A stretch of DNA of 41,645 nt from assembly GCF_015482765.1 (NCBI RefSeq), contig NZ_JADMLB010000008.1, forward strand, positions 1 through 41,645. Direction: 5' to 3'. Of the stretch, positions 23,215 through 41,271 are shown one piece after another (the first letter of the stretch is position 1; each line of letters begins with the position of its first letter). The notes under the pieces are model-generated. The model did not search any database. It was not told the origin of the DNA and saw only the letters and a program-made list of their open reading frames with translations. The stretch is from Halodesulfovibrio sp. (GTDB taxonomy: Bacteria; Desulfobacterota; Desulfovibrionia; Desulfovibrionales; Desulfovibrionaceae). The position numbers were made by a program, and so were the translations under genes.

Positions 23215-23353
23215 ATTATCTACTTTTAATTTCTCATGAATAGTACCATGCTCTGAAGGTGAGTATTTCAAAAAACTATGTTGATGTAGCGTCATTGAAG
23301 TATTTATGAGGCTTTTTTTGTGTAATAATGCTAAAATTAATGGAATCTTACGC

Positions 23354-23463: not shown

Positions 23464-24189
23464 ATGACTTCCCCTATTGCACTTATAACTGGGGCCAGCA
23501 AAGGTATTGGCGCTGCAACAGCATTGACTCTTGCTGAGTCCGGATATGATGTTTGGTTAAATTATCGTGGTGATCATTTTGCCGCTGAACAGGTTAAGGC
23601 CGCTATCGTTAAGAAAGGGCGTAAATGTACGCTTCTTCCTTTTGATGTTGCCGATAAAAATGCTGTCAGGACTGCTTTAGAGCCATTATTGAAAGATGCT
23701 GTTCCGTATGTGTTGGTGAATAATGCTGGTTATACTAAAGATGGTTTGATGATGTGGATGGACGATGAAGATTGGAATGGTGTGCTGGATGTTCACCTGA
23801 ATGGTTTCTTCTACGTTACTAAATGCGTGTTGACCTATATGCTTCGCAAACGTGAAGGGCGCATTATCAACATGGTTTCCACATCTGGTGAGACAGGTGT
23901 TGCTGGGCAGGTGAACTATTCCGCCGCAAAGTCAGGGCTTATAGGGGCCACGAAATCTCTTGCGCGGGAAGTGGCAAAGAGAAATGTTTTGGTGAATGCC
24001 GTGTCTCCTGGCTTTATTGAGACCGAGATGACAGACGGTCTGCCTAAAGAGAAGATTCTTCCGATGATTCCAGTTGGTCGTATGGGGACAGCTAGAGACG
24101 TGGCGGGTGTGGTGCGCTTTTTATGCTCCGAAGATGCAGGTTACATCACCGGACAGGTTCTTTCTGTGAACGGCGGCGTTCATATGTAG
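23464..24189 (+). CDS. 3-oxoacyl-ACP reductase, FabG type
   Basis: A 241-residue short-chain dehydrogenase that reduces beta-ketoacyl-ACP to beta-hydroxyacyl-ACP with NADPH. The cofactor motif TGASKGIG lies at residues 9-16, NNAG at 86-89, and the catalytic Ser139-Tyr152-Lys156 in NYSAAKSG. The ending GYITGQVLSVNGGVHM is typical of FabG. It is the first gene of the long operon and corresponds to the ketoreductase (ApeQ role) of aryl polyene pathways. AAGAGA precedes the ATG. A short GCCCG/CGGGC hairpin lies between it and the next gene. Confidence 0.93.
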   Translation: MTSPIALITGASKGIGAATALTLAESGYDVWLNYRGDHFAAEQVKAAIVKKGRKCTLLPFDVADKNAVRTALEPLLKDAVPYVLVNNAGYTKDGLMMWMDDEDWNGVLDVHLNGFFYVTKCVLTYMLRKREGRIINMVSTSGETGVAGQVNYSAAKSGLIGATKSLAREVAKRNVLVNAVSPGFIETEMTDGLPKEKILPMIPVGRMGTARDVAGVVRFLCSEDAGYITGQVLSVNGGVHM

Positions 24190-24225
24190 TATTAGCCCGG
24201 TCTTTCGGGCAGGGGGGCATTCTCC

Positions 24226-25437
24226 ATGTATAGAGTGGCTATTACTGGTGTTGGCATTATTTCTTGTCTTGGCAACGACAGAGAAACTGTTGCGTCAGCG
24301 TTATATGATGGGCGTTCTGGAATTATATCAGACCCAGAGCGAATTGAATTAGGATTTGCAAGCCCGCTTACTGGTGTTATCAATTTTTCTCCAAAAAAGT
24401 ATCTTACGCGCAAACAACGTAAAACCATGCCCGATTTTGCTGTGCAAGCCTACGCAGCAGTGGCTGATGCGTTGGAGCATGCCAATCTTACATTGGACGA
24501 GTTGCAAAATGATATGACTGGACTTGTGTTCGGCTGCGACTCAAGTGGCTTAACTGCTGTGGAACAAGTTGATCTGCTTCGAGAGCGTGGTGAGACCTGT
24601 CTTATCGGCAGCGGGCATGTGTTCCGTGCGATGACTTCCACCGTGACACTGAACTTGAACTCCATTTTGGGGACGCAAGGTGCTTGTTGGACTATCAGTT
24701 CTGCGTGTGCCAGTGGCGGCAATGCCGTGGGGCAGGCTGCTGACCTTATTGCCCTCGGACGTCAGGAACGTGTTATTTGTGGGGCCGCGCAAGAGCTTAA
24801 CTGGCAGTCTGTGTGCAGTTTTGATGGACTTGGGGCTTTTGCCACAAATGATGATCCTGCCAAAGCGTCTCGTCCTTTTGACTCACAACGTAACGGGCTT
24901 GTTCCAAGCGGTGGTGCAGCCGCAATTGTTTTGGAACGGTTCGACCTTGCGGTTGAGCGTGGCGCACATATTTTAGGCGAAGTCTGCGGGTATGGATTTT
25001 CTTCAGACGGCGAAGCTCTTTCTGTACCTAGCTCAACGGGGTTATCTCGCGCTATGTCCATGGCACTCCGTAATGCGGATGTTCAACCTTCAGACGTTGA
25101 CTATATCAATGCTCATGCGACTTCTACGCCTCTGGGCGATGCTGCAGAAGGGCAGAATATTTTGCAAGTGTTCGGCGATACAACACCGCCGGTAGCTTCG
25201 CTAAAGTCTATGACAGGACATGAACTCTGGATGACTGGTGCGTCTCAGGTTGTTTATTCCGTGTTGATGGCTGAACGGGAATTTCTTGCTCCAAATATCA
25301 ATTTTAACGAGCCGGATGACGCGATTAAGACGTTAAATGTTCTTCAACAGACCAGAGAAACTCGCGTTCATAATATCTTATGTAATTCTGCTGGATTCGG
25401 CGGTACAAACGCCAGTCTTGTTTTGAGATTTTTCTGA
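24226..25437 (+). CDS. Beta-ketoacyl-ACP synthase 1 (FabF-like)
   Basis: A 403-residue condensing enzyme with an intact catalytic set: Cys161 (SSACASGG), His297 (INAHATSTP) and His332 in LKSMTGH. It should extend an ACP-bound acyl chain by two carbons from malonyl-ACP. Within aryl polyene loci a KS beside the FabG-like gene (ApeR role) is usual. Its end overlaps the start of the FAD oxidoreductase gene by one base. AGGGGGGC lies upstream of the ATG. Three further ketosynthase-fold genes in the operon suggest separate roles or chain stages. Confidence 0.93.
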   Translation: MYRVAITGVGIISCLGNDRETVASALYDGRSGIISDPERIELGFASPLTGVINFSPKKYLTRKQRKTMPDFAVQAYAAVADALEHANLTLDELQNDMTGLVFGCDSSGLTAVEQVDLLRERGETCLIGSGHVFRAMTSTVTLNLNSILGTQGACWTISSACASGGNAVGQAADLIALGRQERVICGAAQELNWQSVCSFDGLGAFATNDDPAKASRPFDSQRNGLVPSGGAAAIVLERFDLAVERGAHILGEVCGYGFSSDGEALSVPSSTGLSRAMSMALRNADVQPSDVDYINAHATSTPLGDAAEGQNILQVFGDTTPPVASLKSMTGHELWMTGASQVVYSVLMAEREFLAPNINFNEPDDAIKTLNVLQQTRETRVHNILCNSAGFGGTNASLVLRFF

Positions 25438-26915
25438 TGCAGTATGATGTAATCATAATCGGTGGCGGGTGTTCCGGTCTGACTGCTGCCATTACCCTTG
25501 CGAAGTTGGGACGACGTGTTGCTGTTGTCGAGAAGGATAAGCGGCTTGCTCCCTTACTGCGTGGATTTAGCAGGCAAGGAGTACATTTTGATACAGGCGT
25601 TCACTATGTCGGTGGACTTGGCTCAGGCGGGGTGCTGGAGTCTTATTTTAGATTCTTAGGCATTGATGATGTTGAACGGAAAGAACTTAGACCTGCTTGT
25701 GCTAATATTTTCAAATTTCTGGACTCATCCCGCGAAATAACTTTTCCGCATGGTGCAGATTCGTTTGTATCTATGCTTATGGAAGAATTTCCTGACGAAG
25801 CGGACGGGATCGTCTCTTTTTGGGAGCGCGTGGAAAAAACCGCAGCGCAGTCTCCTTTTCTGAATTTACAGCACTCACTTGATGAAGATGCGCTAATCCC
25901 TGACTTGGACGTTCCAAGCGTGGCAGATGAAGCCCGTAGGGCGACATCGAACCCGTATCTGCAAGCGGCATTTTCCTTGCATGCATTACTGTATGGTGTT
26001 TCGCCTGAGCAGGCGCGCTTTGACGCACATGCCTACACACTTGCATCGTATGTACATTCCGCACACTCGTTTCCTGGTGGGGGCAAGGTGCTGGCTGATG
26101 CGCTTGAAAAGAGAGCACGTGAGCTGGACTGTGATGTCTTTTGCGGAAAGGGTGTTGAGCGTATTCTGGTGGATGACGGTTGTTTTGCCGGTGTGCAGTT
26201 TGCCAATGGTAAAACTATTCATAGCAGGCAGTGTATCTATACCGGTCATCCGGCTTTGTTGCCAGACCTGTTACCGGAAGGTGCTGTACGTCCCCAATGG
26301 GCAAAGCGGCTGAAACGTTTGGAGGATACAGCTCAGGCAATGGTTCTATTTGCTATTGCTGATCATCCAGTCGAACTTCTTACAGACAGTAACGTCTTTC
26401 TTTGTACTGCTCCTTGTGTAGAAAAATTTTTTGAAGCGGACGAAGGAGTTATTTATCTGGCAGGCGGTGAGCCTTTGCCAGATGGACGACAAGCAATAAC
26501 AGTAGTAACTGCTGCCTCCACTGAAGGTTTTTCCGAATGGCAGGAGACGTCATATGGGAACAGGCCATATGCATATCACAAGGAAAAAGAACGTATTAGC
26601 AAGGCTATTTGGCAAAGGGTTCAAGATGGGTGTCCTGAATTAAGAGATGGTGTGAGTCTTGTTGATGTGGCTACTCCTTTGACAATGCAGCACTGGGTAG
26701 CGAGTCCTACAGGTAGTTTGTATGGCGTACGGCATTGTATTGATCAGATTTCTCCGATGCCTATGACAAAAGTTAAGGGGCTTGGTTTGGCTGGTCAATC
26801 TGTTCTTCTTCCGGGAGTTCTTGGCGCAATGGTTTCTGCCTTTGTAACCTGCGGGTGCTTGGTCGGGATGAAGGAACTGCATAAGGAGTTACGGGCATGT
26901 ATCCGAGAAGAGTAG
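25437..26915 (+). CDS. CrtI/phytoene-desaturase-like FAD oxidoreductase
   Basis: A 492-residue flavoprotein. The N-terminal dinucleotide-binding motif is IIIGGGCSGLTAAITLAKLG, followed by VVEKDKRL. The early segment GVHFDTGVHYVGGLG matches the phytoene desaturase/carotenoid isomerase group. The C-terminal FAD motif lies in the last 80 residues (SLYGVRHCIDQ ... GLGLAGQSVLLPGVLGAMVSA). The family desaturates, saturates or isomerises polyene chains. It is not a normal part of aryl polyene loci. It begins on the last base of KS1 and overlaps KS2 by 19 bases, so it is translated as part of the core module. A role in setting double bonds of the ACP-bound product is inference. Confidence 0.88.
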   Translation: MQYDVIIIGGGCSGLTAAITLAKLGRRVAVVEKDKRLAPLLRGFSRQGVHFDTGVHYVGGLGSGGVLESYFRFLGIDDVERKELRPACANIFKFLDSSREITFPHGADSFVSMLMEEFPDEADGIVSFWERVEKTAAQSPFLNLQHSLDEDALIPDLDVPSVADEARRATSNPYLQAAFSLHALLYGVSPEQARFDAHAYTLASYVHSAHSFPGGGKVLADALEKRARELDCDVFCGKGVERILVDDGCFAGVQFANGKTIHSRQCIYTGHPALLPDLLPEGAVRPQWAKRLKRLEDTAQAMVLFAIADHPVELLTDSNVFLCTAPCVEKFFEADEGVIYLAGGEPLPDGRQAITVVTAASTEGFSEWQETSYGNRPYAYHKEKERISKAIWQRVQDGCPELRDGVSLVDVATPLTMQHWVASPTGSLYGVRHCIDQISPMPMTKVKGLGLAGQSVLLPGVLGAMVSAFVTCGCLVGMKELHKELRACIREE

Positions 26916-28126
26916 TGATTACCGGCATGGGAGCTGTGTCTCCTTTTGGCGCTGGTGTCGAGAGCATGTGGGATGGGCTTGTGGCTGGTAACTCAGCTGT
27001 TGGTGAGTTGCCGTCTGGTACTGAAATTTCTGGGTTGAGTGTTCGTGCTGCAGGTATGGTTCCGCCTGTGAATGTTAAAGTAATTCCCCGTCAGTATCGT
27101 CGTTCAATGTCGCGCATGACGCAGTACGCTGTGCTGGCTGCTCAAGAAGCTTTGGATCAGGCAAACATTCCTGACGCGGTTCTAGCTTCTGGAAGATTAG
27201 GGATTTCTGTTGGTTCTACTATCGGAAGTGCGGATGCTTTAGAAGAGTTTTTTACTGAGTATGTAAAAGAAAATAGTCTGGAAGCAATTCGTTCTACAAC
27301 ATTTTTTAAAGTGATGGGGCATACCGTAGCTGCCAACCTCGCCCAAGTGCTAGGTGTTACTGGACGTGTAGAAGCTCCTTCCGCAGCTTGTGCTTCTGGA
27401 TGTCAGGCAATCGGACTTGCCTATGAGAGCGTTGCATATGGCAGGCAGGATGTCATGCTGTGTGGTGGAGCTGATGAGTTCAGTCCGCTTACTGCTGCTA
27501 CTTTTGGTCTGATGAATGCTGCTTCATCCAATGACGCAACCTCTCCAGATGCCTCATCTCGCCCGTTTGACAGTAGTCGTGATGGAATTGTTTGTGCTGA
27601 GGGAGCAGGTTTGCTTGTTGTTGAAAGCCTAGAACACGCACAAGCCCGTGGTGCGACGATTTTTGCCGAGATTGTAGGCTTCGCTTCTAACAGTTCTCCA
27701 AGCAGCATAGCTAATCCAGACGCGAACTCCATTAAAACATGTATTGAACTTGCGTTGAAAGACGCTTCTGTATCACCTGTAGACGTTGATTATATCAGTG
27801 CTCACGCTACGGGCACCGAGCAGGGGGATATTGCAGAAGCGACTGCCATAGCTGAGATATTTACCTCTATGCCAATGATTAGCAGTCTAAAAGGGCATAT
27901 GGGCCATACAATGGCAGCCAGTGGGGCACTTGAAAGCATTGCATCTGTGTTGATGATAACCAATGACATAATTGTTCCTACCCGCAACCTCACTGAGGTT
28001 GATCCCCGGTGCGGAGCCGTGAATTTGCCTGTTGTAAATCATAATCAGGCGGTTAGCACCGTCGTTAAAAACAGTTTTGCCCTCGGGGGCATTAATTCTG
28101 TACTAGTTATAAGGAATGCTACATGA
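26897..28126 (+). CDS. Beta-ketoacyl-ACP synthase 2 (FabF-like)
   Basis: A 409-residue condensing enzyme with Cys165 (PSAACASGCQ), His303 (SAHATGTEQG) and Lys332/His337 (LKGHMGHT). All catalytic residues are present. The start is well supported: AAGGAG lies eight bases before the ATG, inside the previous gene. It overlaps the following ACP gene by four bases, so KS2 and ACP1 are likely a matched pair. It differs clearly from KS1 and KS3, so the operon does not hold recent duplicates. Confidence 0.93.
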   Translation: MYPRRVVITGMGAVSPFGAGVESMWDGLVAGNSAVGELPSGTEISGLSVRAAGMVPPVNVKVIPRQYRRSMSRMTQYAVLAAQEALDQANIPDAVLASGRLGISVGSTIGSADALEEFFTEYVKENSLEAIRSTTFFKVMGHTVAANLAQVLGVTGRVEAPSAACASGCQAIGLAYESVAYGRQDVMLCGGADEFSPLTAATFGLMNAASSNDATSPDASSRPFDSSRDGIVCAEGAGLLVVESLEHAQARGATIFAEIVGFASNSSPSSIANPDANSIKTCIELALKDASVSPVDVDYISAHATGTEQGDIAEATAIAEIFTSMPMISSLKGHMGHTMAASGALESIASVLMITNDIIVPTRNLTEVDPRCGAVNLPVVNHNQAVSTVVKNSFALGGINSVLVIRNAT

Positions 28127-28380
28127 CCGAGAAGGAAGTAATAGAGATTGCGAATGTCGCGCTCGCAGAAGAGTTTGAACTTGAAATGGAACAGATGGTC
28201 CCTGAAGCTCGTTTTAACGATGATCTGGGTTTAGACAGTCTTGATGCTGTTGATATGGTTGTTGTTTTGGAGCAGGCGTTTGGATTTAAGTTGCGTGATA
28301 ATCAGGCTCTGAGAGAAATTCGCACTCTTGATGATTTGCATAAATATATTTTGCGGAAGAAAAGCGAGCTTGAAGGTTAG
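28123..28380 (+). CDS. Acyl carrier protein 1
   Basis: An 85-residue ACP. The phosphopantetheine site is Ser39 in DLGLDSLDAVDMV. Four-helix length and acidity are normal for type II ACPs. It carries the growing chain between the ketosynthases, reductase and dehydratases of this operon. It is coupled to KS2 by a four-base overlap and followed 12 bases later by the acyltransferase. No phosphopantetheinyl transferase is in the window. Confidence 0.95.
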   Translation: MTEKEVIEIANVALAEEFELEMEQMVPEARFNDDLGLDSLDAVDMVVVLEQAFGFKLRDNQALREIRTLDDLHKYILRKKSELEG

Positions 28381-28392
28381 TCTGGTTTTGGT

Positions 28393-29133
28393 ATGCGCTT
28401 GTCTCTTCTGCTTATGAACTTGATTCAGTACCCGTTGTTGATAGGGTGGACTGTTTTTTGTGTGCTTCTGGCTTTTCCTCTGTTTCATCTATGGAGATTG
28501 GTAACTGGATGGGAGCTGGATAGGGTTGCGCGCATGTTCATCTGGTTTTACGGCAGAGTCTGGATGGAGTTCTTGAGACCTTTTGGACGGGTTCGTAAAG
28601 AGGGCTTGCAAAAGGAACGTGTACCGACACCTTGTGTTTTTGTGGCTAATCATTTGTCATTTTTTGATGTGTATTGCATGGGGACACTGCCTGTAACAAA
28701 CTTTTCTATTGTTGTTCGGGCATGGCCGTTTAAGATGTGGTTTTACGCTCCTTTTATGCGGGCAGCCAAGTATTTGAACAGTGAACAGCTTGATCAGGAA
28801 GAGTTTATGGCACAATGCCGTGACGTCTTTGACAGGGGAGGGAGTGTTCTCTTTTTCCCTGAAGGACATAGAAGCCGTGACGGAGAGCTGGGCAGGTTTT
28901 ATTCAGGGGCCTTTAAGGTGGCTCTAGACAATGATGTTCCTGTTGTTCCGCTTGCCATATCCGGTACGGATAAATTGTTGCCTAGAGGGCAATGGGTAAT
29001 GCGGCCGGCAGAGGTCGTGGTTGAAGGTTTGGAACCGGTCTATCCTCGTCAGTTTATGCATGAAGATGTGCCCCATCTTGCTATGCGCAAATATGTTAAG
29101 CAGGCCATAGCTGCTGCCCGCAAACGACGGTAG
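28393..29133 (+). CDS. Lysophospholipid-type acyltransferase (PlsC family)
   Basis: A 246-residue membrane-bound acyltransferase. The N-terminus has a membrane helix (about 8-33). The catalytic HX4D motif is NHLSFFD at 86-92, and the substrate motif FPEGHRSRDG is at 155-164. It probably moves the finished acyl chain from ACP onto a lysolipid or glycolipid in the inner membrane. The same family occurs in aryl polyene loci (ApeB-like role). It sits 12 bases after the ACP gene. The acceptor is unknown. Confidence 0.9.
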   Translation: MRLSLLLMNLIQYPLLIGWTVFCVLLAFPLFHLWRLVTGWELDRVARMFIWFYGRVWMEFLRPFGRVRKEGLQKERVPTPCVFVANHLSFFDVYCMGTLPVTNFSIVVRAWPFKMWFYAPFMRAAKYLNSEQLDQEEFMAQCRDVFDRGGSVLFFPEGHRSRDGELGRFYSGAFKVALDNDVPVVPLAISGTDKLLPRGQWVMRPAEVVVEGLEPVYPRQFMHEDVPHLAMRKYVKQAIAAARKRR

Positions 29134-29171
29134 CTATCTTTTATGAATCTTGTGTTACCCAAGGGGTTGTT

Positions 29172-29573
29172 ATGAAACGCGTTTTCTCTTTTCTTGTTGT
29201 TATGATGTTCGTTATTGCTTCTGTTGGTTGTTCTAAGACTATGATGAGTTACCATGATCAGTCTTTTCAGGCAGCTGATGGTTCGCTTACGCTGAAGCAG
29301 GTAGAAAAAGCAATTGTGACTGCCGGTGCAAAGCGTGGTTGGGTAATGAAAAAGAAACATAATGGGCTTATGATTGGTACACTGAATGTACGTAATCATA
29401 TGGTTCAGGTTAATGTGAAATATAACACTGAAGCTTTCTCTATTACGTATCTCAACAGTGTGAATATGAATTATAACGCGCAGCGTAAGACTATTCATCG
29501 CAGTTATAACACTTGGATCATGAACCTCCGAAATGATATTCAGGCAACAATTCCGTTGGCTGTTATGGAGTAA
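29172..29573 (+). CDS. Small lipoprotein
   Basis: A 133-residue protein with a lipoprotein signal (lipobox VIASVGC, Cys20), so it is anchored in the inner or outer membrane on the periplasmic side. The mature part has the pattern of a small alpha/beta domain (LKQVEKAIVTAGAKRGWVM, then strands HNGLMIGTLNV and MVQVNVKYN). It recalls the small lipoproteins found in aryl polyene clusters, but I give no name. AAGGGG lies upstream of the ATG. It sits between the acyltransferase and the radical SAM gene. Confidence 0.8.
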   Translation: MKRVFSFLVVMMFVIASVGCSKTMMSYHDQSFQAADGSLTLKQVEKAIVTAGAKRGWVMKKKHNGLMIGTLNVRNHMVQVNVKYNTEAFSITYLNSVNMNYNAQRKTIHRSYNTWIMNLRNDIQATIPLAVME

Positions 29574-29576
29574 ATC

Positions 29577-30662
29577 TTGAGTATGCCAGACCGCCCTTGG
29601 GGATCTAATTTCAGCCAAGAAGACATAGATTCTGCCAGAAAAGAGAATCGCATCCTTTCTCTTGAGCTCGAGCTTAGTCGCGAATGCGACTTGAATTGCA
29701 TTTACTGTTACGCTGAGTCCGGTTCTGCCAGAGAGGATGAACTTTCATTGGATGAAATTTATTCTGTGTTGGATGAAGCCGCAGACCTTGGTGTGCGTCG
29801 TGTGATTGTGCTCGGGGGAGGTGAACCTCTTGTATATACTCATACGCTGGACATTATGAGATCAATTGCTGCTAAAGGTATAGGAATCGATCTTTTTACC
29901 AACGGTACGCAAGTTACTGCTGATATGGCACGTGAGTTTCTTTCGTTGGGGGTCGCGCCTGTTGTGAAGATGAACAGCATGCGTCCTGATGTTCAGGAGA
30001 GGTTAGCCGGTAAAAAAGGATCTTATGTCGATATTCGACGCGGTCTGGATTTATTGATGGAAGCTGGATACCCCACTTCGGAAATTCCTTTGGGGGTTCA
30101 GTCTATCATTTGCAAGCAGAACATTGATGAACTGCCGGACATGTGGGTCTGGCTTCGAGATCGGAATATTATTCCTTATTTCGAGATGATCACCTTGCAA
30201 GGTAGGGCACAGAAGCATCCAGAGCTTGCTGTTACCATTCCGGAAACCCAAGCATTGTTTGAAGAGCTGGCCCGCATTGACAGGGAACGATATGACCTGC
30301 ATTGGGAACCGCATCCATCCGTTGTTGGATTGTGCTGTAACAGGCATGCATATTCCTGCACGGTAACGGTTTCCGGCGATATCATTCCGTGTCCTGGTGT
30401 TGATATCTCTGTTGGTAATATCCGAACGCAGCCGCTTGCGGACATTCTGAGTCAGAGCCGAGTGTTGCATGAATTGCGCAACGTTCGGGAACACATCAAA
30501 GGTGAATGTCGTGAGTGCGATCTTGCTCATGAATGTTACGGCTGTCGAGGGATGGCGTATCAAGCAACAGGGGATTATTTAGCTCCGGACCCGCTGTGCT
30601 GGAGGCCTTCCCAGAAAGCTACTGATAAGAAAAAGACAGGTCTTGGAAAGGAGGCTATGTAG
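29577..30662 (+). CDS. Radical SAM protein with SPASM-like C-terminal domain
   Basis: A 361-residue radical SAM enzyme. The cluster motif is C37-DLN-C41-IY-C44, with the GGEP motif at 81-84. The C-terminal region holds eight or nine cysteines (253/254, 261, 272, 311, 314, 320, 323, 341), the SPASM/twitch pattern that binds extra Fe-S clusters. The family generates a 5'-deoxyadenosyl radical; most SPASM members act on peptides, some on carbohydrates or small molecules. No precursor peptide gene is near, so an acyl or sugar substrate is possible. The TTG at 29577 is preferred because GGAG lies six bases upstream; ATG 29583 is the alternative. It overlaps the dehydratase gene by one base. Confidence 0.9.
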   Translation: MSMPDRPWGSNFSQEDIDSARKENRILSLELELSRECDLNCIYCYAESGSAREDELSLDEIYSVLDEAADLGVRRVIVLGGGEPLVYTHTLDIMRSIAAKGIGIDLFTNGTQVTADMAREFLSLGVAPVVKMNSMRPDVQERLAGKKGSYVDIRRGLDLLMEAGYPTSEIPLGVQSIICKQNIDELPDMWVWLRDRNIIPYFEMITLQGRAQKHPELAVTIPETQALFEELARIDRERYDLHWEPHPSVVGLCCNRHAYSCTVTVSGDIIPCPGVDISVGNIRTQPLADILSQSRVLHELRNVREHIKGECRECDLAHECYGCRGMAYQATGDYLAPDPLCWRPSQKATDKKKTGLGKEAM

Positions 30663-31102
30663 TGTCTTCGTTGCCGTTAGATGTTGCAGGTATTTTACCA
30701 CATAAGCCGCCTATGCGCCTTGTAGACCGTCTCGTGCATGTTGAAGATGAGCAGGCAGTCGTTACCGCCCGGCTTGACGAAGATTGCATTCTTGTCGGCA
30801 GAAACGCTGAACTTGATAGTGTTGTATATGCTGAGCTGGTGGCGCAGGCATATGCTGCGTTCAAGGGATATCAATTAGCGCAGGCTAACGAGGATATTAA
30901 AGAAGGATATCTCGTTGGTATTCGCAAAATGAAGGTGCTTGGTAAAGCCGTTGCCGGTGATTCTTTGACTGTGACAGTTACAACAGTAGGATTGCTGCAG
31001 GGATTTGCCGTGGTAGATGGCACCGTTGCTCATGGTGAAAGGCTGATTGCGGAAGTGCGTCTAAAACTTTACGTGCCGGAAGAAGGCGGTCTGGAAGTAT
31101 GA
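30662..31102 (+). CDS. Hotdog-fold 3-hydroxyacyl-ACP dehydratase 1
   Basis: A 146-residue hotdog protein of the FabZ-like ApeP group. The motif ILPHKPPMRLVDRL (about residues 11-24) supplies the catalytic His, and YAELVAQAYAA supplies the acidic partner. It should remove water from 3-hydroxyacyl-ACP to make the trans double bonds of a polyene. The start is GTG, overlapping the preceding stop, with a perfect AGGAGG seven to eight bases upstream. It overlaps the LolA-like gene by four bases. Dehydratase 2 (34891-35280) is a different branch and may be its partner subunit. Confidence 0.87.
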   Translation: MSSLPLDVAGILPHKPPMRLVDRLVHVEDEQAVVTARLDEDCILVGRNAELDSVVYAELVAQAYAAFKGYQLAQANEDIKEGYLVGIRKMKVLGKAVAGDSLTVTVTTVGLLQGFAVVDGTVAHGERLIAEVRLKLYVPEEGGLEV

Positions 31103-31716
31103 TGCGTGTAATTCTGTTGTGTCTTTGCTTGTTGTTCTCCTGTGAGGCACATGCTTATGCAGGTACAGAAGAGTTTTTGGATAAGCTTAAGACGACAATG
31201 GGGAATGTACAGAGCTTGAAATGTCGCTTTGTGCAGCGTAAGACACTGGCTATGTTTGATGACACTCTAGAGTCGCAAGGGGTGTTGTTGTTTCAAAGCC
31301 CAGACCGCCTAAGGTGGGAATATATTTCACCCGTCAAAGCGGGGTTTGTTGTTGCAGGAAAACAGGGACGACGCTGGAATACGCTTGCCGGAACGGATGA
31401 ACCGTTTCGTGTGGCGGATGATGTTGAAATGCGTATTCTGACAGAACAGGTACTAAAATGGACATGTTTTGATCTTGATGCGCTTCGCGAACAGTATGAG
31501 TTTGCTGTAGCAAGTAAAAAACCGCTGAAACTTGTTCTTACCCCGAAGAGCACAGTTGTTCGTCGCTTGTTGAAAGAGTTACGGGTTACCTTATCTCCTG
31601 CAATGAGTGATGTTGCCAAGCTTGAGTTTATCGAAGCTGATGGCGATGTCACAACATATACTTTTTTTGATACGATTATTAATTCTGATATTGACGCCTC
31701 TTTACTGACCCCATGA
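31099..31716 (+). CDS. LolA-like periplasmic lipid carrier
   Basis: A 205-residue protein with a signal peptide (LLCLCLLFSCEAHAYAG) and the LolA-type fold signature LKCRFVQRKTLAMFDDTLESQG followed by LLFQSPDRLRWEYISP. LolA proteins shuttle lipoproteins or lipids across the periplasm. The members in polyene loci are thought to carry the product to the outer membrane. It overlaps the neighbouring genes by four bases on each side, so carrier and exporter are coupled. Confidence 0.9.
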   Translation: MMRVILLCLCLLFSCEAHAYAGTEEFLDKLKTTMGNVQSLKCRFVQRKTLAMFDDTLESQGVLLFQSPDRLRWEYISPVKAGFVVAGKQGRRWNTLAGTDEPFRVADDVEMRILTEQVLKWTCFDLDALREQYEFAVASKKPLKLVLTPKSTVVRRLLKELRVTLSPAMSDVAKLEFIEADGDVTTYTFFDTIINSDIDASLLTP

Positions 31717-34145: not shown

Positions 34146-34894
34146 TTTGTTTGTTAGTACTCTTTTGTTGCTTGCTGACGGGGTGCTCCGCAGGCAGTAT
34201 CGATCCGCATCCGATGCCTCCTGATGGTGACGTTGCTATTGAAGCCGTAAGCCATTGGAGTCAAAGCAAGGCGATGTATCGAATAAGGCTATCCGGCGAT
34301 GTGTCGACCAACGGCAAGAGTTTTACCTTTCAAGGCCTAATGCATTTAAACGGTGTAACTCGGACTGCCCGACTTGTTACATTTTCCGAATTAGGGACCA
34401 AGCTTTTTGATGTATCTGTGATGCCGGAGGGGGAGCAGCTTCACTCAACGTTACCCGGTATCGGGTTATTACAGGTGCGCAAACTGGTGGTGAGAAGTGT
34501 TCGCCGCATGTTGGTGAACTATATGCCTTTACGAAGCGATTCTGCTCGTGCTGATGGTCAAAGAAGAATTTTGCAGCGGTGCGAAGGACAAATTTGTCTG
34601 ACCAATACCTTTATGCCACTGCCACCTGATAACATTACCGTTGGTCATCCTTCAGTGGAGGATCAGCAGCTCGGACAAGCTGCTGAGGGTAATGGGGTAG
34701 CAGAGGGCGTGCGCGGTGAAACAGCCGTACATAATGAGTCTTCATTGTTGTGGAAAGCAACGTATAGTAATCATACATCTGTTGGTTCTCATTGGATGCC
34801 GACAATGCTTGTATATTTAGAGCCAGAGAATAACGAGATAAATACACGTGTTAAATTTGTCGTTGTGTCTGTTGCCGAGGGGGAGAAGAAATGA
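34142..34894 (+). CDS. Outer-membrane lipoprotein of DUF3261 type
   Basis: A 250-residue lipoprotein with a very short signal (lipobox LLTGC, Cys15). The following beta-rich domain (YRIRLSGDVSTNGKSFTFQG, LMHLNGVTRTARLVTF, KLFDVSV) matches the LolB-like/DUF3261 lipoprotein found next to the exporter in aryl polyene loci, by position and pattern. It likely receives the product at the outer membrane. It overlaps the exporter and the next gene by four bases each. A tail of about 60 residues after residue 190 is atypically long. Confidence 0.75.
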   Translation: MICLLVLFCCLLTGCSAGSIDPHPMPPDGDVAIEAVSHWSQSKAMYRIRLSGDVSTNGKSFTFQGLMHLNGVTRTARLVTFSELGTKLFDVSVMPEGEQLHSTLPGIGLLQVRKLVVRSVRRMLVNYMPLRSDSARADGQRRILQRCEGQICLTNTFMPLPPDNITVGHPSVEDQQLGQAAEGNGVAEGVRGETAVHNESSLLWKATYSNHTSVGSHWMPTMLVYLEPENNEINTRVKFVVVSVAEGEKK

Positions 34895-35280
34895 ACAGGG
34901 TGCGTAAAGAACTTATCAATGCAATGGCCTCGGTGCAGCAGGGGAAAACGGGGCAGTGGATATCTCATTTTCGGCTGCCTGTATCGTTTGTAGGGTTTGA
35001 AGGCCATTTCCCTGAACGTCCTATTTTGCCTGCCATAGTTCAGATGTTGATGGGCGTGGTTACTGTTGAACGCATCTATGGAAACAGTTTGGAAATTTCT
35101 GCCATCAGCAATGCAAAGTTTGTTCAGCCTGTGTCGCCGGATATGGACGTGGCTGTGTCTTGTATTCCTGCTGATGCGGAGCGTTCGTCTGTAACTGTTC
35201 GTTTGACAACAGAAAATGGTGTTGCCTCCTCCTTTTCATTGCAGCTCGCCCGTGTAGCAGGCAGTACGGAGGGCGTGTGA
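34891..35280 (+). CDS. Hotdog-fold 3-hydroxyacyl-ACP dehydratase 2
   Basis: A 129-residue dehydratase of the FabA/FabZ/ApeI type. The motif FEGHFPERPILPAIVQM (about residues 37-53) contains the catalytic His40 (GHFP) and the helix that follows. The usual catalytic Glu/Asp of the helix is not obvious (AIVQMLMGVV has Gln), which hints that it works as a partner of dehydratase 1. It is coupled to both neighbours by overlap. Confidence 0.82.
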   Translation: MNRVRKELINAMASVQQGKTGQWISHFRLPVSFVGFEGHFPERPILPAIVQMLMGVVTVERIYGNSLEISAISNAKFVQPVSPDMDVAVSCIPADAERSSVTVRLTTENGVASSFSLQLARVAGSTEGV

Positions 35281-35732
35281 TTAAGCCATATTTCCGTTCA
35301 TCTGATGGGCCAAAGCCGCTTTCCTGTGAGGTTGAAAGGCGGATTCGATTTGAAGAGGTAGATCCTTTGGGCATTGTCTGGCACGGCCGGTATCCTAGTT
35401 ATTTTGAAGACGCCCGTGTTGCTCTGGGTGACTCTTTGGGCATTGGCTATATGGATTTTTACAAGCAGGGGATTGTAACGCCTATCAAGCAGATGCATGT
35501 CGATTACATCAAGCCCCTTGAGTATGGTGACACTTGTTCCGTTGAGGCATTGCTTCATTGGAGTGAAGCCGCCAAGCTGTCGTATGAATTTAATATTCGC
35601 AATGAACAGGATGAAGTTGTTACGCGCGGTTACTCCGTGTTGTTGATGGTGACGCTTGAAAGAGAGCTTCTTGTGACACCACCTGACTTTTATCAGAGTT
35701 TTCTTTCCCGTTGGTCAAGCGGGGCGTTGTAG
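35277..35732 (+). CDS. 4-hydroxybenzoyl-CoA-type thioesterase (YbgC-like)
   Basis: A 151-residue hotdog thioesterase. The motif FEEVDPLGIVWHGRYPSYFE matches the active-site region of acyl-CoA/ACP thioesterases, with the catalytic Asp in EVDPLG. It could edit stalled intermediates or release the chain (ApeK-like role). The GTG start overlaps the preceding stop, with GGAGG six bases upstream. Confidence 0.87.
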   Translation: MIKPYFRSSDGPKPLSCEVERRIRFEEVDPLGIVWHGRYPSYFEDARVALGDSLGIGYMDFYKQGIVTPIKQMHVDYIKPLEYGDTCSVEALLHWSEAAKLSYEFNIRNEQDEVVTRGYSVLLMVTLERELLVTPPDFYQSFLSRWSSGAL

Positions 35733-35734
35733 CA

Positions 35735-36898
35735 ATGCGTGATGATATTTTAGTCGTTATTCCTGTATATAACCACGGTGCAACGTTGCGCAATGTGGCA
35801 AAGGGTGTTCTTGAGCAGCATCCGCATCTTCTTGTTGTTGACGACGGCAGCACTGATGGGGGTGCGGAAACTCTGTCCGGTTTACCTTGTCATGTGGTCA
35901 AACATGAGAAGAACATGGGCAAAGGAGCAGCCATCCTGACTGCTTCAAAGAAAGCAATGGCTCTTGGGAAGACACACATTGTTACGATTGATGCAGATGG
36001 ACAGCATTTTCCGGAAGATCTTGAAGTTTTTTTTGCTGCTCAGGAAGAAGATCAGAATGCGCTCTACGTAGGAGCACGAGATTTCTCTGTGCCGAATGTG
36101 CCTGGTTCATCAAAATTTGGTCGTCAATTTTCACGATTCTGGTTGCGTATTCAGACGGGATGGGATGTTAGTGATCCGCAAAGCGGATTCAGGGCGTACC
36201 CCGTTGCTCTGCTGAATAATCTAAAGTTGAGTGAAACTCGGTATGCGTTTGAAATCGAAGTGCTTGCCAAGGCTGCATGGGCTGGTATTCCACTTAAGAC
36301 GGTGCCGATATCTGTATATTACCCAAAGTCGGAAGAGCGCGTATCTCACTTTCATAAGCTTAAAGATAATGTGACCATCAGTCTGCTTAACACGCGACTG
36401 ACAATGCGCTCTATGCTTCCTTTACCGCACGGTAAGTTTTCCCCTTCGCTGGAAGAAGGTATTACCGTCACCCATCCTATTCGTTCGTTGCGCTTGCTGC
36501 TCGAAGACGAGGCTACTCCGCATGAGTTGGCTCTTTCTGGCGCGCTGGGTGCGGTTTTAGGAACGCTTCCTCTTATCGGGTTGCATTCTATCGGTATTTT
36601 ATTACTGGCGGGATGGTTGCGATTAAACAAAATATGCGGGCTGGCCGTCAGTCAGTTATGTATTCCACCTTTTGTGCCTGCCATTTGTATTGAGGTCGGA
36701 CACTATGTCTGCCATGGACGATGGCTTACCGAAATCTCAATGGAGACGCTTGGCTATCAGGCGTTGGATCGTTTGTGGGAATGGGTAATCGGGTCTTTGA
36801 TTGTGGCACCTGCGGCCGCTGTTTTGGTCGGTGGAATCATTTGGTTGTTGTCTTACCTTATCCAAAGTGGTTTGCAGGCTAGAGGTCAGCATGACTAG
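35735..36898 (+). CDS. GT2 glycosyltransferase with membrane C-terminus
   Basis: A 387-residue inverting glycosyltransferase of family 2. The nucleotide-sugar domain spans about residues 1-220, with VVIPVYNHGATL, VVDDGSTDGG and the metal motif DADGQHF. The fit is to the dolichol-phosphate-mannose/undecaprenol-sugar synthase type. The C-terminal about 130 residues hold hydrophobic helices (GALGAVLGTLPLIGLHSIGI and WVIGSLIVAPAAAVLVGGII), resembling the DUF2062 domain. ATG 35735 is chosen because the GT domain starts there; an in-frame TTG at 35711 adds eight residues. It overlaps the LpxL-like gene by eight bases. It may glycosylate the lipid anchor. Confidence 0.87.
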   Translation: MRDDILVVIPVYNHGATLRNVAKGVLEQHPHLLVVDDGSTDGGAETLSGLPCHVVKHEKNMGKGAAILTASKKAMALGKTHIVTIDADGQHFPEDLEVFFAAQEEDQNALYVGARDFSVPNVPGSSKFGRQFSRFWLRIQTGWDVSDPQSGFRAYPVALLNNLKLSETRYAFEIEVLAKAAWAGIPLKTVPISVYYPKSEERVSHFHKLKDNVTISLLNTRLTMRSMLPLPHGKFSPSLEEGITVTHPIRSLRLLLEDEATPHELALSGALGAVLGTLPLIGLHSIGILLLAGWLRLNKICGLAVSQLCIPPFVPAICIEVGHYVCHGRWLTEISMETLGYQALDRLWEWVIGSLIVAPAAAVLVGGIIWLLSYLIQSGLQARGQHD

Positions 36899-37793
36899 CA
36901 TGACAGCATCTAAATGGAGCAGCAAGAGCCTTGGCGGCCAGTTGCGGCATCAATTTTTTTATTTTTTGGTACGTATTGGTGGAATCATTCCGCCGTACAT
37001 TGTTCTTGTATTTGTAGTCGGTTGGTACAGCTTACTCCCTTCGGTACGCCGACGTTCGCAGCCTTACTTAACTCGCCGATTTACCTCCTGCGGCTGGTTG
37101 TCGCGACTCTGGAAAGGTTTCCGACTCAATCTTTCTTTCGGCATGGTTTTGTTGGATCGCATTATTTATCGTGAGCTTGGACGTGGTGCCGTTTTAGCTC
37201 AGGAAGAGGATAATGAGCGTATCCGTTCTTTGCTCGCAGAGGGGAATGGACTCATTGTTCTTTCTGCTCATGTAGGGTGCTGGCAGACAGGCATTGCTGG
37301 CCTTGCGTGTGGCGGGGTACCTATTAATGTTGTGCTGTTGCAAGAGCAGGGAAATGTTGATCTGCACTTTTTTCAACAAGGCAGTCGTGGCCCTTCAGTA
37401 AACGTTATCGATCCATCAGGGCCTTTTGGTGGAATGATTGAAATGTTGAGTGCTTTGAAACGCAACGAAATAGTGTGTGTTATGGGGGATCGATATTTAC
37501 AGGGTGACAAAAATCTTGTTGATGTAAAATACTTCGGGGAACAGGTTAAGCTACCAATGTTTCCAATTTCGGTTGCGGCTGCTGCGGGTGCTCCGGTAGC
37601 AGTAATGGCGACGCTTCGCGAGGGCGCGTGTGTTGCCCGTGCACATGTGCTGGATGTGTTTTCTGTACCTGCTAATGTTGGTAAGAGAACAGAATTGTGC
37701 CGTCCTTATGTTCAACGTTTTGCAACGTCTCTTGAGCGGCTTGCGTGGATGCAACCATATCAAATTTTTAATTTTTTTGACATGTGGAACTAA
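36891..37793 (+). CDS. LpxL-like (lauroyl-type) acyltransferase
   Basis: A 300-residue membrane acyltransferase of the LpxL/HtrB superfamily. An N-terminal helix (IIPPYIVLVFVVGWYSLLP) precedes the catalytic region SAHVGCWQTGIAGL. In family members the motif is H-x4-D/E; here the residue five after His is Gln, so the general-base pair is incomplete. Other family marks are present (VMGDRYLQGDKN and LPMFPISVAAAAGAP). It probably attaches or once attached an acyl chain to a sugar lipid. GAGGT lies five bases before ATG 36891. It is followed by ACP2 nine bases later. Confidence 0.85.
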   Translation: MTSMTASKWSSKSLGGQLRHQFFYFLVRIGGIIPPYIVLVFVVGWYSLLPSVRRRSQPYLTRRFTSCGWLSRLWKGFRLNLSFGMVLLDRIIYRELGRGAVLAQEEDNERIRSLLAEGNGLIVLSAHVGCWQTGIAGLACGGVPINVVLLQEQGNVDLHFFQQGSRGPSVNVIDPSGPFGGMIEMLSALKRNEIVCVMGDRYLQGDKNLVDVKYFGEQVKLPMFPISVAAAAGAPVAVMATLREGACVARAHVLDVFSVPANVGKRTELCRPYVQRFATSLERLAWMQPYQIFNFFDMWN

Positions 37794-37802
37794 GGAGAAA
37801 AT

Positions 37803-38057
37803 ATGTCTGTTTACGACAAGTTGCTTACAGCAATTCTTGATGAGTTATATATTGAAGATATTTCGGCTGAAACAGTGAAAGGTGATGAGCCCCTTTTTGG
37901 TGACGATGGACTTGGTCTGGACTCCCTTGATGCGGTAGAACTTGTAGTCTTGGTAGAAAAGCATTTTGGTGTAGTGATCGAAAATATTGAAGAAGACCGA
38001 GTCGCCTTCTCCTCTCTCAACGCTTTAGCTGCATTTATCGAAGAGCGTCAGGCGTAG
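37803..38057 (+). CDS. Acyl carrier protein 2
   Basis: An 84-residue ACP with phosphopantetheine site Ser41 in GLGLDSLDAVELV. AAGGAG lies six bases before the ATG. It precedes the KS3/chain-length-factor pair by one base, so it is the natural carrier for that pair. ACP1 and ACP2 differ clearly outside the site, as in aryl polyene loci, which have two ACPs. Confidence 0.95.
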   Translation: MSVYDKLLTAILDELYIEDISAETVKGDEPLFGDDGLGLDSLDAVELVVLVEKHFGVVIENIEEDRVAFSSLNALAAFIEERQA

Positions 38058-38058
38058 T

Positions 38059-39273
38059 ATGAAATGCCGTATCAGTGTCACCGGAATGGGGATTTTATGT
38101 GCTGCAGGGCAAGGAGTGTCAGCTGTTATGGACACTCTATACTCTGGAGCCCGTCTTGCTGCGCCACCTAAACGAATTAGTTGTGAACTGGATGTAGTGT
38201 ATCCTGTGTATGAGGTGCAGAATCTTTCAGCAGCGGCATATTCAGAAGGTTCTGGCATTATTGATAATGCATGCTCTTCTGAAGACTCTCTTTCTGTTCG
38301 TATGCTTATGCAGGTTGTTCAGGAGGCGTTGGTTCAGGCTCAACTTACACCGAAAGATCTTGTAAACAAGCGTGTTGGTGTTTGTATAGGTACAACTACC
38401 GGTGCTTCGCTTAATTTTGCCGATGACTATTTTGCGCATAAGAAGCATGGGTGGAAGTCCATGAGTCAGGTTTCCTCATGGTTGCATTCTAATCCAGCGC
38501 TCGCTGTTTCGAAGTACTTGGGACTTTCCGGGCCTTGCCAGACGGTTGTGAATGCGTGTTCATCTGGTACAGATGCTATTGGGTTGGGCATGTCGTGGTT
38601 GGAAAATGATGTTTGCGATATTGTTCTTGCCGGAGGCGTGGATGAGCTCAGTCTTGTTTCTTACAATGGATTTATTCGTCTCGGGGTATACGATCCAGAA
38701 CCGTGTAGGCCTTTTGATGCTGGACGCAAGGGACTGAATCTTGGAGAAGGCGCTGCTATGCTGGTGCTTGAAAAGCGGAAAGATGCTGAAGCGCGTGGGA
38801 TTGCTTTGCAGGCTGAATGCGCGGGGTATGGAACCTCTGCAGATGCATATCATTTGACCGCTCCCGCACCCGAGGGGGATGGGGTGAAGCGTGCCATTGA
38901 AAGTGCGCTGGAGCAGGCGGAAATTACCTGTGACGATGTGGATTTTATTAATGTTCATGGCACTGCAACCCCAGATAATGACAGGGTAGAGTCTCGCGTA
39001 TTGACCGACATGTTCCCTGATACGCTTGTGTCAGCCACAAAAGGGTTTACCGGCCATACACTTGGTGCTGCCGGTGCTATTGAAGCTGTATTTGTTATTC
39101 AGGCGTTGCTTGATCAGAAGTTGCCTGCAAGCGTTGGCTTTGGTGAATCGGAAGATGGTTTTACTATGTGTCCAGTAAGTAGGGATATTTCCATCGTTGC
39201 TCGTTATGGCCTTTCTGAATCATTAGCATTTGGTGGGAATAACTCTGTGCTGATCTTTTCGAAGGAGTTGTAA
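38059..39273 (+). CDS. Beta-ketoacyl-ACP synthase 3 (KS-alpha)
   Basis: A 404-residue condensing enzyme with Cys167 (VNACSSGTDA), His300 (NVHGTATPDND) and Lys328/His333 (KGFTGHT). It is directly followed by the cysteine-less partner gene, so the two probably form a KS/CLF heterodimer of the type-II polyketide/aryl polyene kind (ApeO role). The gene begins one base after the ACP2 stop. Confidence 0.93.
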   Translation: MKCRISVTGMGILCAAGQGVSAVMDTLYSGARLAAPPKRISCELDVVYPVYEVQNLSAAAYSEGSGIIDNACSSEDSLSVRMLMQVVQEALVQAQLTPKDLVNKRVGVCIGTTTGASLNFADDYFAHKKHGWKSMSQVSSWLHSNPALAVSKYLGLSGPCQTVVNACSSGTDAIGLGMSWLENDVCDIVLAGGVDELSLVSYNGFIRLGVYDPEPCRPFDAGRKGLNLGEGAAMLVLEKRKDAEARGIALQAECAGYGTSADAYHLTAPAPEGDGVKRAIESALEQAEITCDDVDFINVHGTATPDNDRVESRVLTDMFPDTLVSATKGFTGHTLGAAGAIEAVFVIQALLDQKLPASVGFGESEDGFTMCPVSRDISIVARYGLSESLAFGGNNSVLIFSKEL

Positions 39274-39274
39274 T

Positions 39275-40099
39275 ATGTCATGTGCCATTATGGGGATGGG
39301 TATAGTGACTCCGGAAGGGAGCTCTTTTGATGTCCTTGCTGAGAAAGAGTTAGATTTGGCAAAAACAGCTGATGTTCAGATGTTAGAGCAATTTCATACT
39401 AAACGGGAGCTACGAAGAACTTCTCAGTATAGTCGGTTAGCCTTGCTTGGTGCTAACTTGGCTCTTAGGGATGCTGGTATGTCGGTTGAGTCGTTTGACT
39501 CTGGAAGATTAGGTGTAATTGTTGCTACTGGTTATGGGCCAGCTCGTACGACATTTGATTTTTTGGATTCTATTCACGACTTTGGTGCCAAGCTTGCGTC
39601 CCCGCTCGCTTTTTCTACCTCTGTGCATAATATTGCTGCATCCATCATTTCTTTGAAACTTGGTATTGCTGGCCCTTGTTTGAGCATAAATCAATTTGAA
39701 ACGTCTTTTGCTTCTGCTCTTGTATCTGCACGTTGCTGGTTAGATGAAGGGCGTGTTGATGCAGTTCTCGTAGGTGCCGTGGACGAATATGATTCTACGT
39801 TGTGCGACGCTATTGCGGCTGTAGATGGTGAAGCCATTGAAAGTTCTTTTCCGCATAGTTCCCCAGCTGAAGGCTCGATGTTTATGTTATTAACGCGAGA
39901 TGAAGTTGGAAAACGAGGAATGTTAAATAAAGTGTTGATCCAGCGCCGAACTGCATCAGACCCAATTAAATCTGCTTTTCCGGCAGGGCAAGCCTTGGAA
40001 GTCGCAAGAGCAATTGCCTTGAAACAGAATGTAGCTGTGTGTTGTAATGATGCATCAGGTCTTGAGTCAGTAATTTCTATTAATGGTTCATGTGCATGA
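39275..40099 (+). CDS. Ketosynthase-like chain-length factor (short)
   Basis: A 274-residue ketosynthase-fold protein. The active-site region reads GIAGPCLSINQFETSFASAL; aligned on KS3 the catalytic Cys is Glu142, so it cannot condense. The C-terminal half with both histidine motifs is largely missing, while normal KS and CLF proteins have about 400 residues. ApeC-type factors in aryl polyene loci are also reduced, so this may be native rather than a truncation. It probably shapes chain length as partner of KS3. AAGGAG lies nine bases before the ATG. Confidence 0.82.
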   Translation: MSCAIMGMGIVTPEGSSFDVLAEKELDLAKTADVQMLEQFHTKRELRRTSQYSRLALLGANLALRDAGMSVESFDSGRLGVIVATGYGPARTTFDFLDSIHDFGAKLASPLAFSTSVHNIAASIISLKLGIAGPCLSINQFETSFASALVSARCWLDEGRVDAVLVGAVDEYDSTLCDAIAAVDGEAIESSFPHSSPAEGSMFMLLTRDEVGKRGMLNKVLIQRRTASDPIKSAFPAGQALEVARAIALKQNVAVCCNDASGLESVISINGSCA

Positions 40100-41271
40100 G
40101 TGTTTTTACGTCCTTTGATGTTGAATTGTTATTGATCAGCATGCTGCGCTCGCGTTTGTTGGAAAAGGGTGGCGGGTTGCTGCAAGGAGATAATGTAGAC
40201 TTTGCGTGCTCCTTAGAAGAGGCGTTTCCTGCACTGACTGTAGACGATAAGCTAGATGTCTATAAACATCTATGTGAGATGCTTGGTGCTGTAGCTGATG
40301 ACTGTAGCAATGTTTTATCTCAGTCGGTACGCACTGTGTGTAGTAATGCTTATGCACAGTGGGAGAACGGTCCGGCGGTACTTTTCTTTCGGACTTCCGG
40401 CTCAACGGGCGTTCCGGTTGTTTGTGAACAGTCTTTGGAGTTATTGGAACAAGAGGCACTCTTTTTAGCAACTCTTGTTAAGGATTGCTCCAGGGTTGTA
40501 TGCGTTGTTCCGCAGCATCACATCTATGGGTTTCTTTTTACAGTGCTTCTCCCAACCGTCCTAAAGGCTGATCGGCTCATTGTTCCACCATACCCGGGGC
40601 AATCGTTTATTAACTTGTTGCAGGACAGGGATGTTGTGATTGCTTTTCCTATGTTTTGGAAAGGACAGTCAGAGTTGCAGTTGGAATGTGATAAGGATGT
40701 CGTGGGGATAACCTCAACCGGCCCATGTCCAGCCGAAGTTATTCAGAAGCTTATATCTAAGGGCTTTTCAACAATTCTAGAAGTGTATGGATCGTCTGAA
40801 ACAGGTGGCGTCGGATATAGGAGAGCACCGGATACTCCATACGAGCTTTTCCCTTACTGGGAGATGGAAAATGACTTGCTGCAACGAACTGGCGGTGCGG
40901 GAAATATAATCTGTGCCTTGTCGTTTCCTGACAATGTGCGTTGGGATTCTCCACGTTTGTTTATGCCTCTTCGGCGTAAGGATAATGCAGTTCAAGTCGC
41001 TGGGCGTAATGTGTATCCAGATCGGGTTAAGCAGGAGATTCTGTCTCATCCTGATGTGGTTGAATGTGCCGTTCGTTTAATGCGTCCAGAGGAAGGAAGT
41101 CGACTTAAAGCGTTTATTGTACCTAGTGAAAAATGCGAAGACTGGAATTTGTTTAAAAAAGAGCTACAAGCATGGTGTCGGACTCGTTGTAGTGTTGCGG
41201 AGTTGCCAAAGAAGATAACTATTGGCAGTGATCTGCCACGGAATAGTATTGGTAAGCTTGCAGATTGGTAG
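40096..41271 (+). CDS. AMP-dependent acyl/aryl-ACP ligase
   Basis: A 391-residue member of the ANL superfamily that would activate a starter acid as adenylate and load it on ACP or CoA. The P-loop FFRTSGSTGVPVV lies at about 97-109, the A5 motif EVYGSSETGGVGY in the middle, and GRNVYPDRVKQEI near 310. The catalytic Lys is in RNSIGKLADW at the end. It is about 100 residues shorter at the N-terminus than usual acyl-CoA ligases, as in ApeH-like enzymes. ATG 40096 (four-base overlap with the stop) is preferred over 40090. It is the last gene of the operon. The starter acid is not deducible, and no ammonia-lyase or chorismate lyase is near. Confidence 0.88.
   Translation: MSVFTSFDVELLLISMLRSRLLEKGGGLLQGDNVDFACSLEEAFPALTVDDKLDVYKHLCEMLGAVADDCSNVLSQSVRTVCSNAYAQWENGPAVLFFRTSGSTGVPVVCEQSLELLEQEALFLATLVKDCSRVVCVVPQHHIYGFLFTVLLPTVLKADRLIVPPYPGQSFINLLQDRDVVIAFPMFWKGQSELQLECDKDVVGITSTGPCPAEVIQKLISKGFSTILEVYGSSETGGVGYRRAPDTPYELFPYWEMENDLLQRTGGAGNIICALSFPDNVRWDSPRLFMPLRRKDNAVQVAGRNVYPDRVKQEILSHPDVVECAVRLMRPEEGSRLKAFIVPSEKCEDWNLFKKELQAWCRTRCSVAELPKKITIGSDLPRNSIGKLADW

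Follow-up and report, generated by a model that had tools for sequence, protein, structure and literature searches.

What does an anaerobe make with a run of genes in which a nearly complete aryl polyene (APE) gene set is joined by a carotenoid-desaturase-like flavoprotein and a radical S-adenosylmethionine (SAM) enzyme, and is such a locus a local oddity or one form of a wider class? The question is raised by positions 23464-41271 of a 41,645-nucleotide stretch from Halodesulfovibrio sp. (assembly GCF_015482765.1, contig NZ_JADMLB010000008.1, positions 1 to 41,645; the window hereafter), which hold 20 consecutive, tightly packed plus-strand genes, every one of them assignable. The genome contains a dsrA match above the curated cut-off, consistent with a sulphate reducer, and the host is probably a sulphate-reducing bacterium. 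We consider it likely that the operon is an anaerobe's APE-type type II polyketide locus, the polyene lipid of which would be tailored while bound to an acyl carrier protein (ACP). This reading rests on gene content, a recurrent gene order, purifying selection, a gene fusion, and co-occurrence and linkage of the genes. As far as its genes indicate, the locus represents a new version of APE-type loci rather than a one-off hybrid, and its product is probably a polyene-bearing membrane lipid.

Genes were assigned by Pfam, NCBIfam and PDB matches, and motifs and lipoboxes were located in the translations. The Cys-His-His set of the ketosynthases (KS), the DSL serine of the ACPs and the other motifs are read in their usual functional sense. 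The features are as follows.

23175..23217, plus strand: terminator-like hairpin of 19 pairs, upstream of the operon.
23464..24189, plus strand: short-chain dehydrogenase/reductase (SDR) ketoreductase, FabG/ApeQ-like (PF13561, 6.9e-57; YxxxK motif).
24226..25437, plus strand: KS1, an additional FabB-like ketosynthase (Cys-His-His; NF005935 at 2.3e-111, below cut-off; top PDB match 7pps, 3-oxoacyl-ACP synthase 1, at 2.6e-93).
25437..26915, plus strand: CrtI/CrtD/CrtISO-like flavoprotein (PF01593).
26897..28126, plus strand: KS2, ApeR-like ketosynthase (Cys-His-His; best PDB match 7f27, AbApeR, at 9.6e-92).
28123..28380, plus strand: ACP1 (PF00550; DSL serine).
28393..29133, plus strand: PlsC-type acyltransferase, ApeD-like (PF01553, 2.5e-22).
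29172..29573, plus strand: lipoprotein Lip1 (lipobox; homologues in relatives; without a Pfam match).
29577..30662, plus strand: radical SAM/SPASM protein (PF04055, PF13186; CxxxCxxC and seven more SPASM-type Cys).
30662..31102, plus strand: ApeP-like hotdog dehydratase (PF22817 at 2.4e-08, above cut-off; His and Glu motifs).
31099..31716, plus strand: LolA-like carrier, ApeL-like (PF03548).
31713..34145, plus strand: MMPL/RND-type exporter, ApeM-like (Pfam and NCBIfam).
34142..34894, plus strand: lipoprotein Lip2, at the ApeN (DUF3261) position (lipobox; without a Pfam match).
34891..35280, plus strand: ApeI-like hotdog protein (PF22818 at 0.0023, below cut-off; position).
35277..35732, plus strand: 4HBT thioesterase, ApeK-like (PF13279, 6.1e-14).
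35711..36898, plus strand: GT2 glycosyltransferase with DUF2062, like the glycosyltransferase part of ApeJ (PF00535, PF09835).
36801..37793, plus strand: LpxL-type acyltransferase, like the acyltransferase part of ApeJ (PF03279, 4.2e-09).
37803..38057, plus strand: ACP2 (PF00550; DSL serine).
38059..39273, plus strand: KS3, ApeO-like ketosynthase (Cys-His-His; NF006618 at 1.7e-87, below cut-off).
39275..40099, plus strand: short chain length factor (CLF) at the ApeC position (active-site Cys absent).
40090..41271, plus strand: ANL acyl ligase, in the ApeH role (nearest model 4-coumarate-CoA ligase, TIGR02372).

All parts that the sequence-only reading had claimed for a 20-gene plus-strand operon were recovered by Pfam, NCBIfam and motif searches. 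The 19 intergenic gaps range from -98 to +38 bases, and the value of -98 is probably due to an LpxL start annotated too long, the true start probably lying near 36891.

The core of this operon appears, by its matches, to be of the APE type. As the reference gene set we used the E. coli ape list in the accessible text of PMC8253772; according to the accessible part of PMC8358021, PDB entry 7F27 is ApeR and 7F28 is ApeO-ApeC. KS2 is of the ApeR type in that 7f27 tops its PDB matches. KS3 matches the ApeO-ApeC entries 7f28_B (2.1e-51) and 6qsp_A, with 9s5h and FabF-type entries scoring higher, and the adjoining CLF, devoid of the active-site Cys, has KS entries as its PDB matches (best 2alm, 3.5e-14). 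The ApeP-like protein passes PF22817 (34.1 bits against a cut-off of 27), and the thioesterase, two acyltransferases, glycosyltransferase, LolA and RND-type exporter of the APE set are all present, which bears out the claim of APE-type synthesis, attachment and export genes. The ApeN assignment of Lip2 is made only via the relative L079, in which the Lip2 profile matches the position of a DUF3261 protein. Compared with the ape clusters of E. coli CFT073, X. doucetiae and A. baumannii, the window shares, by type or position, ApeA (a lipoprotein), ApeC to ApeF and ApeH to ApeR, whereas it lacks the ApeB methyltransferase and ApeG, has ApeJ split into two genes, and adds KS1, the CrtI-like flavoprotein and the radical SAM/SPASM protein.

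The flavoprotein is closest to carotenoid desaturases in both sequence and predicted fold (AlphaFold2 model with a pLDDT of 91.6; nearest fold 4REP, TM 0.78). It nonetheless scores far below the curated NCBIfam cut-offs for CrtD (111.2 against 549.7), CrtISO (76.1 against 586.9) and the CrtI family (70 against 238.1), and by these cut-offs a role as a carotenoid enzyme of any of the three kinds is ruled out. In the radical SAM protein, CxxxCxxC and the seven SPASM-type Cys do not vary among the 42 sequences aligned, of which the window's is one; its AlphaFold2 model (pLDDT 90.1) has SkfB, SuiB and PqqE as nearest solved folds. AhbD is its best NCBIfam model, at 135.8 bits against a cut-off of 500, which rules out an AhbD heme synthase.

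The locus is real and probably functional. A genome of a sister species (G009) matches the window at 23950-41270 with 94% identity and at 23382-25949 with 91%, and the match stops at both operon ends: approx. 16 kb of the sister genome upstream of the shared block has no match to the window, and the downstream comparison rests on 375 window bases only. Because the sister species keeps the block with its limits at the two ends of the operon, the block is more than a product of chance. The ratio of nonsynonymous to synonymous divergence (dN/dS) between the two does not exceed 0.32 in any of the 19 genes measured (KS3, with a gapped alignment, was left out); the flavoprotein gene has 0.09 and the radical SAM gene 0.11. 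These values indicate purifying selection. Between the window and sister-species loci L016/L033, dS is high at the operon ends (SDR 0.63, ANL ligase 0.51) and 0.07-0.27 in the 17 measured genes between them, a pattern that suggests recombination of the cluster core.

Is the combination of genes a peculiarity of this genome? Fifty-nine genomes close to the window's were searched, its own among them: the ApeJ-like GT2 was found in 14 at E 1e-40, and the identical 14 hold the flavoprotein at E 1e-60 or better, a threshold picked after the search, with two further genomes matching at 1e-21 and 1e-25. Ten of these 14 carry the radical SAM gene (E 1e-40), and KS1 is present in 13 of the 14 loci, the matching part of the last (G002) lying outside the stretches fetched. 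Fisher tests on this occurrence gave 7.5e-14 and 1.6e-8, in calculations that ignore kinship. KS1 and the flavoprotein are regular additions of this APE version, and the radical SAM gene is a common, though not constant, one. The four loci of G017, G022, G026 and G044 keep KS1 and the flavoprotein; the stretches read there contain no such radical SAM gene, and none of the four genomes has a match at E 1e-40 (weaker kin were not sought). An obligatory partnership of flavoprotein and radical SAM enzyme is thereby ruled out. The G026 locus has a B12-type (cobalamin-binding) radical SAM gene between the thioesterase and GT2 genes. Elsewhere in G017, a second flavoprotein of the same family (L123) has no recognised APE-type neighbour in the 20 kb read. 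The hybrid of which the sequence-only reading spoke is not supported by these counts as a peculiarity of this genome, and because the gene order recurs in relatives and in other phyla, a local hybrid is rejected.

A wider view comes from a contig scan, which returned 258 radical SAM relatives, and 80 of these loci were kept. They span ten NCBI phyla, including Thermodesulfobacteriota, Nitrospirota, Omnitrophota and Sumerlaeota, and many derive from metagenome bins. The order SDR-(KS1)-flavoprotein-KS2-ACP-PlsC-radical SAM-ApeP-LolA-MMPL-ApeI-thioesterase recurs in relatives and in other phyla. Seventy-six loci have 600 or more bases of downstream sequence; in 33 of these, the radical SAM protein and an ApeP-like domain share one open frame, and in a further 8 they are adjacent genes; a quick tree gives 4 changes between the fused and separate states. 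Provided that the flank is long enough, PlsC lies upstream of the radical SAM gene in 58 of 64 loci; for the flavoprotein this holds in 30 of 44, and in one more it lies downstream. Linkage was also followed in a second family, that of the L105 genome: among its 93 genomes, 53 have the radical SAM gene and 52 the flavoprotein (both 46, radical SAM alone 7, flavoprotein alone 6, neither 34), and in 21 of the 93 the two genes are at most 129 bases apart. The genome of L112 (G060) has the radical SAM gene with no flavoprotein match at E 1e-20, or at 1e-50 with a profile. Related clusters vary in other respects: B12-type radical SAM genes are present in L079, L112 and L124, and a ligase with an AMP-binding_C_2 domain in L079, L065 and L120. 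In L124, the B12 gene stands in a locus without a SPASM radical SAM gene. The radical SAM proteins of L039 and L040 are near-identical although their bins are named Desulfonatronovibrio and Opitutales, probably through a binning error.

From these data, we infer every chemical step of the following pathway, as well as the aryl head and the outer-membrane site of the product. The ANL ligase would load a starter acid onto an ACP, and the chain would be extended with malonyl units by KS3 with the CLF (ApeO/ApeC-like) and by KS2 (ApeR-like), the SDR and the hotdog dehydratases leaving a conjugated polyene. KS1 would most likely serve one early or odd chain step, and the CrtI-like flavoprotein would most likely use its flavin to isomerise or dehydrogenate the polyene. 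As an optional tailoring enzyme, the radical SAM/SPASM protein would probably modify the chain while this is bound to the ACP, next to the ApeP dehydratase; its placement on the growing chain is suggested mainly by the fusion with ApeP. The thioesterase, PlsC, GT2 and LpxL proteins would then transfer the chain to a lipid anchor, and MMPL, LolA and the lipoproteins would deliver it to the outer membrane.

Several observations weigh against this proposal, in addition to the post hoc threshold and the neglect of kinship mentioned above. In the core, no ApeC chain occurs among the 47 listed PDB matches of the CLF, the ApeI-like protein falls below the PF22818 cut-off (18.6 against 28.5 bits), although its size and place fit, and the ligase is below the cut-off of its own model (TIGR02372, 222 bits against 334.7). 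The best PDB match of the ApeP-like protein is 8ayd, a FabZ entry and possibly an anammox FabZ. ApeB and ApeG are absent from the 20 operon genes, to which the search was confined; we take both to be variable APE members, so that their absence is not decisive. Among the relatives, 35 of the 76 loci have no ApeP after the radical SAM gene, 13 of the 44 have the flavoprotein on neither side, and in 17 of the 80 no KS was found within 7 kb, although 11 of those 17 have less than 7 kb upstream. Moreover, 7 of 12 inspected fused ApeP-like domains (of the 33 fused) have Gln at the expected position of the FabZ-type catalytic His (L068, L079, L080, L082, L089, L096 and L113), so the dehydratase part may be inactive in those fusions. 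Finally, none of 18 genomes searched has UbiC, and a single one of the 18, not the window's, has an aromatic ammonia-lyase; because the window's genome yielded neither, an aryl starter is without a known source here.

Two alternatives are both unlikely but have an appreciable chance of being correct. The locus may be an ordinary APE pigment locus, with the flavoprotein and radical SAM enzyme as minor decorations and a classical aryl polyene lipid as the product. The near-complete ape gene set would fit this, as would the absence of the radical SAM gene from 4 of the 14 genomes with the locus; however, the flavoprotein is found in all 14 loci, KS1 is additional, ApeB and ApeG are missing, and no source of the starter was found. 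Alternatively, the chain may not be aryl at all, and a fatty or other carboxylic starter would lead to a polyunsaturated acyl lipid, much like the proposal of Rattray et al. (2009; accessible text of PMC2649909) for similar clusters. That account, the want of a UbiC or ammonia-lyase match in the genome, the FabB-like KS1 and the B12 radical SAM genes of related loci speak for such a chain, whereas a ligase nearest to the 4-coumarate-CoA ligase model, and KS2 and an ApeP-like dehydratase of the APE type, speak for an aryl one.

A third proposal, which we find doubtful, is that the radical SAM enzyme itself makes the starter acid for the ANL ligase, in place of UbiC or an ammonia-lyase in an anaerobe. 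The window's genome has neither of these enzymes, the radical SAM gene adjoins the ANL ligase gene in the same-genus loci L021-L024 and in L018-L020, L065 and L079, and BlsE, a solved relative, is a decarboxylase. However, none of the four genomes without this gene (G017, G022, G026 and G044) has UbiC or an ammonia-lyase either, and a pairing of their loss with a gain of the radical SAM gene was looked for and not seen. Moreover, 9.4 kb separate the radical SAM gene from the ligase in the window, and the ApeP fusion points to the growing chain. That the operon makes a ladderane or other cyclised lipid is highly improbable: the flavoprotein, radical SAM and additional KS genes do recall anammox candidate clusters, but neither a B12 radical SAM gene nor a SAM methylase is among the 20 genes, D. 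psychrophila, with a similar cluster, yielded polyunsaturated hydrocarbons and no ladderanes (Rattray et al. 2009, accessible text of PMC2649909), and, according to the available part of Javidpour et al. 2016 (PMC4790861), E. coli that expressed anammox candidate genes formed no new fatty acids, although several of the proteins were insoluble or were not detected, and lycopene was not produced by two flavoproteins.

The likeness to ladderane candidate clusters pointed out by the sequence-only reading nonetheless holds at the level of gene content, in that type II fatty acid synthesis (FASII) genes, a radical SAM gene and a phytoene-desaturase-like gene occur together. As far as the accessible text of Rattray et al. 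(2009; PMC2649909) goes, the K. stuttgartiensis and D. psychrophila clusters contain radical SAM, phytoene-desaturase-like, ligase and glycosyltransferase genes and share these with the window, together with FASII-type genes and several KS, a likeness judged on published gene content, not gene-by-gene homology; the window differs in carrying an APE-type export set and in lacking B12 radical SAM genes and methylases. Ladderane-type clusters are reported in several non-anammox phyla, with no known function, in the part of PMC9902471 available to us; the phyla of these antiSMASH 'ladderane' biosynthetic gene clusters and of the present loci overlap (e.g., Desulfobacterota and Omnitrophota), and we would expect antiSMASH to give the window operon the same name. 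The celluxanthenes of cellulolytic anaerobes (PMC12144888, in the text available) are likewise arylpolyenes from an anaerobe, as proposed here, but they are made by an iterative type I polyketide synthase, and the terms radical SAM, flavin and oxidoreductase are absent from that text. Radical SAM enzymes that join lipid tails exist as well (PMC11868695, accessible part) and are considered here by name only. Open-licence PMC papers provided no title on a radical SAM-ApeP fusion and no title or abstract that combines APE terms with Desulfovibrio. Of the finding that would count against the sequence-only reading, radical SAM and CrtI-like genes as ordinary members of a characterised APE or other pigment cluster, one half holds: both are regular members of their locus class, but no chemical characterisation of that class was found among the open-licence PMC papers.

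At 11718-19407, upstream of the operon, a tRNA-Arg gene precedes a phage-type integrase gene (11876-12823), with a NikA-like protein and a MobA/VirD2-type relaxase (17279-19407) encoded further on; this region is probably a mobilisable element that has integrated. The final 14-20 bases of the tRNA-Arg gene have no other exact copy in the window. A single run of genes at 3518-10147, for an outer-membrane efflux protein, HlyD, an ABC ATPase and two ABC-2 permeases, looks like an ordinary export operon. The minus strand at 20332-22174 encodes a DNA/RNA non-specific endonuclease and another protein, which matches an autotransporter barrel.

Since 2009, the name ladderane-like has been applied to clusters that combine radical SAM genes with phytoene-desaturase-like ones, and we know of no product for them outside anammox bacteria. 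Within this context, the operon links such clusters to the APE pathway, a parent of understood chemistry, and the repeated fusion of the radical SAM protein to an ApeP-like domain shows where in the pathway to look. A more far-reaching idea, which is distinctly doubtful, is that the radical SAM/SPASM enzyme, the ApeP-type dehydratase and the flavoprotein form one module, widespread in anaerobes, that reshapes ACP-bound polyenes by forming C-C bonds or by cyclisation, with the window operon as the simplest form in which it is complete and as a tractable way into ladderane-type chemistry. With a culturable sulphate reducer that has so compact an operon, the question of the chemistry would become testable.

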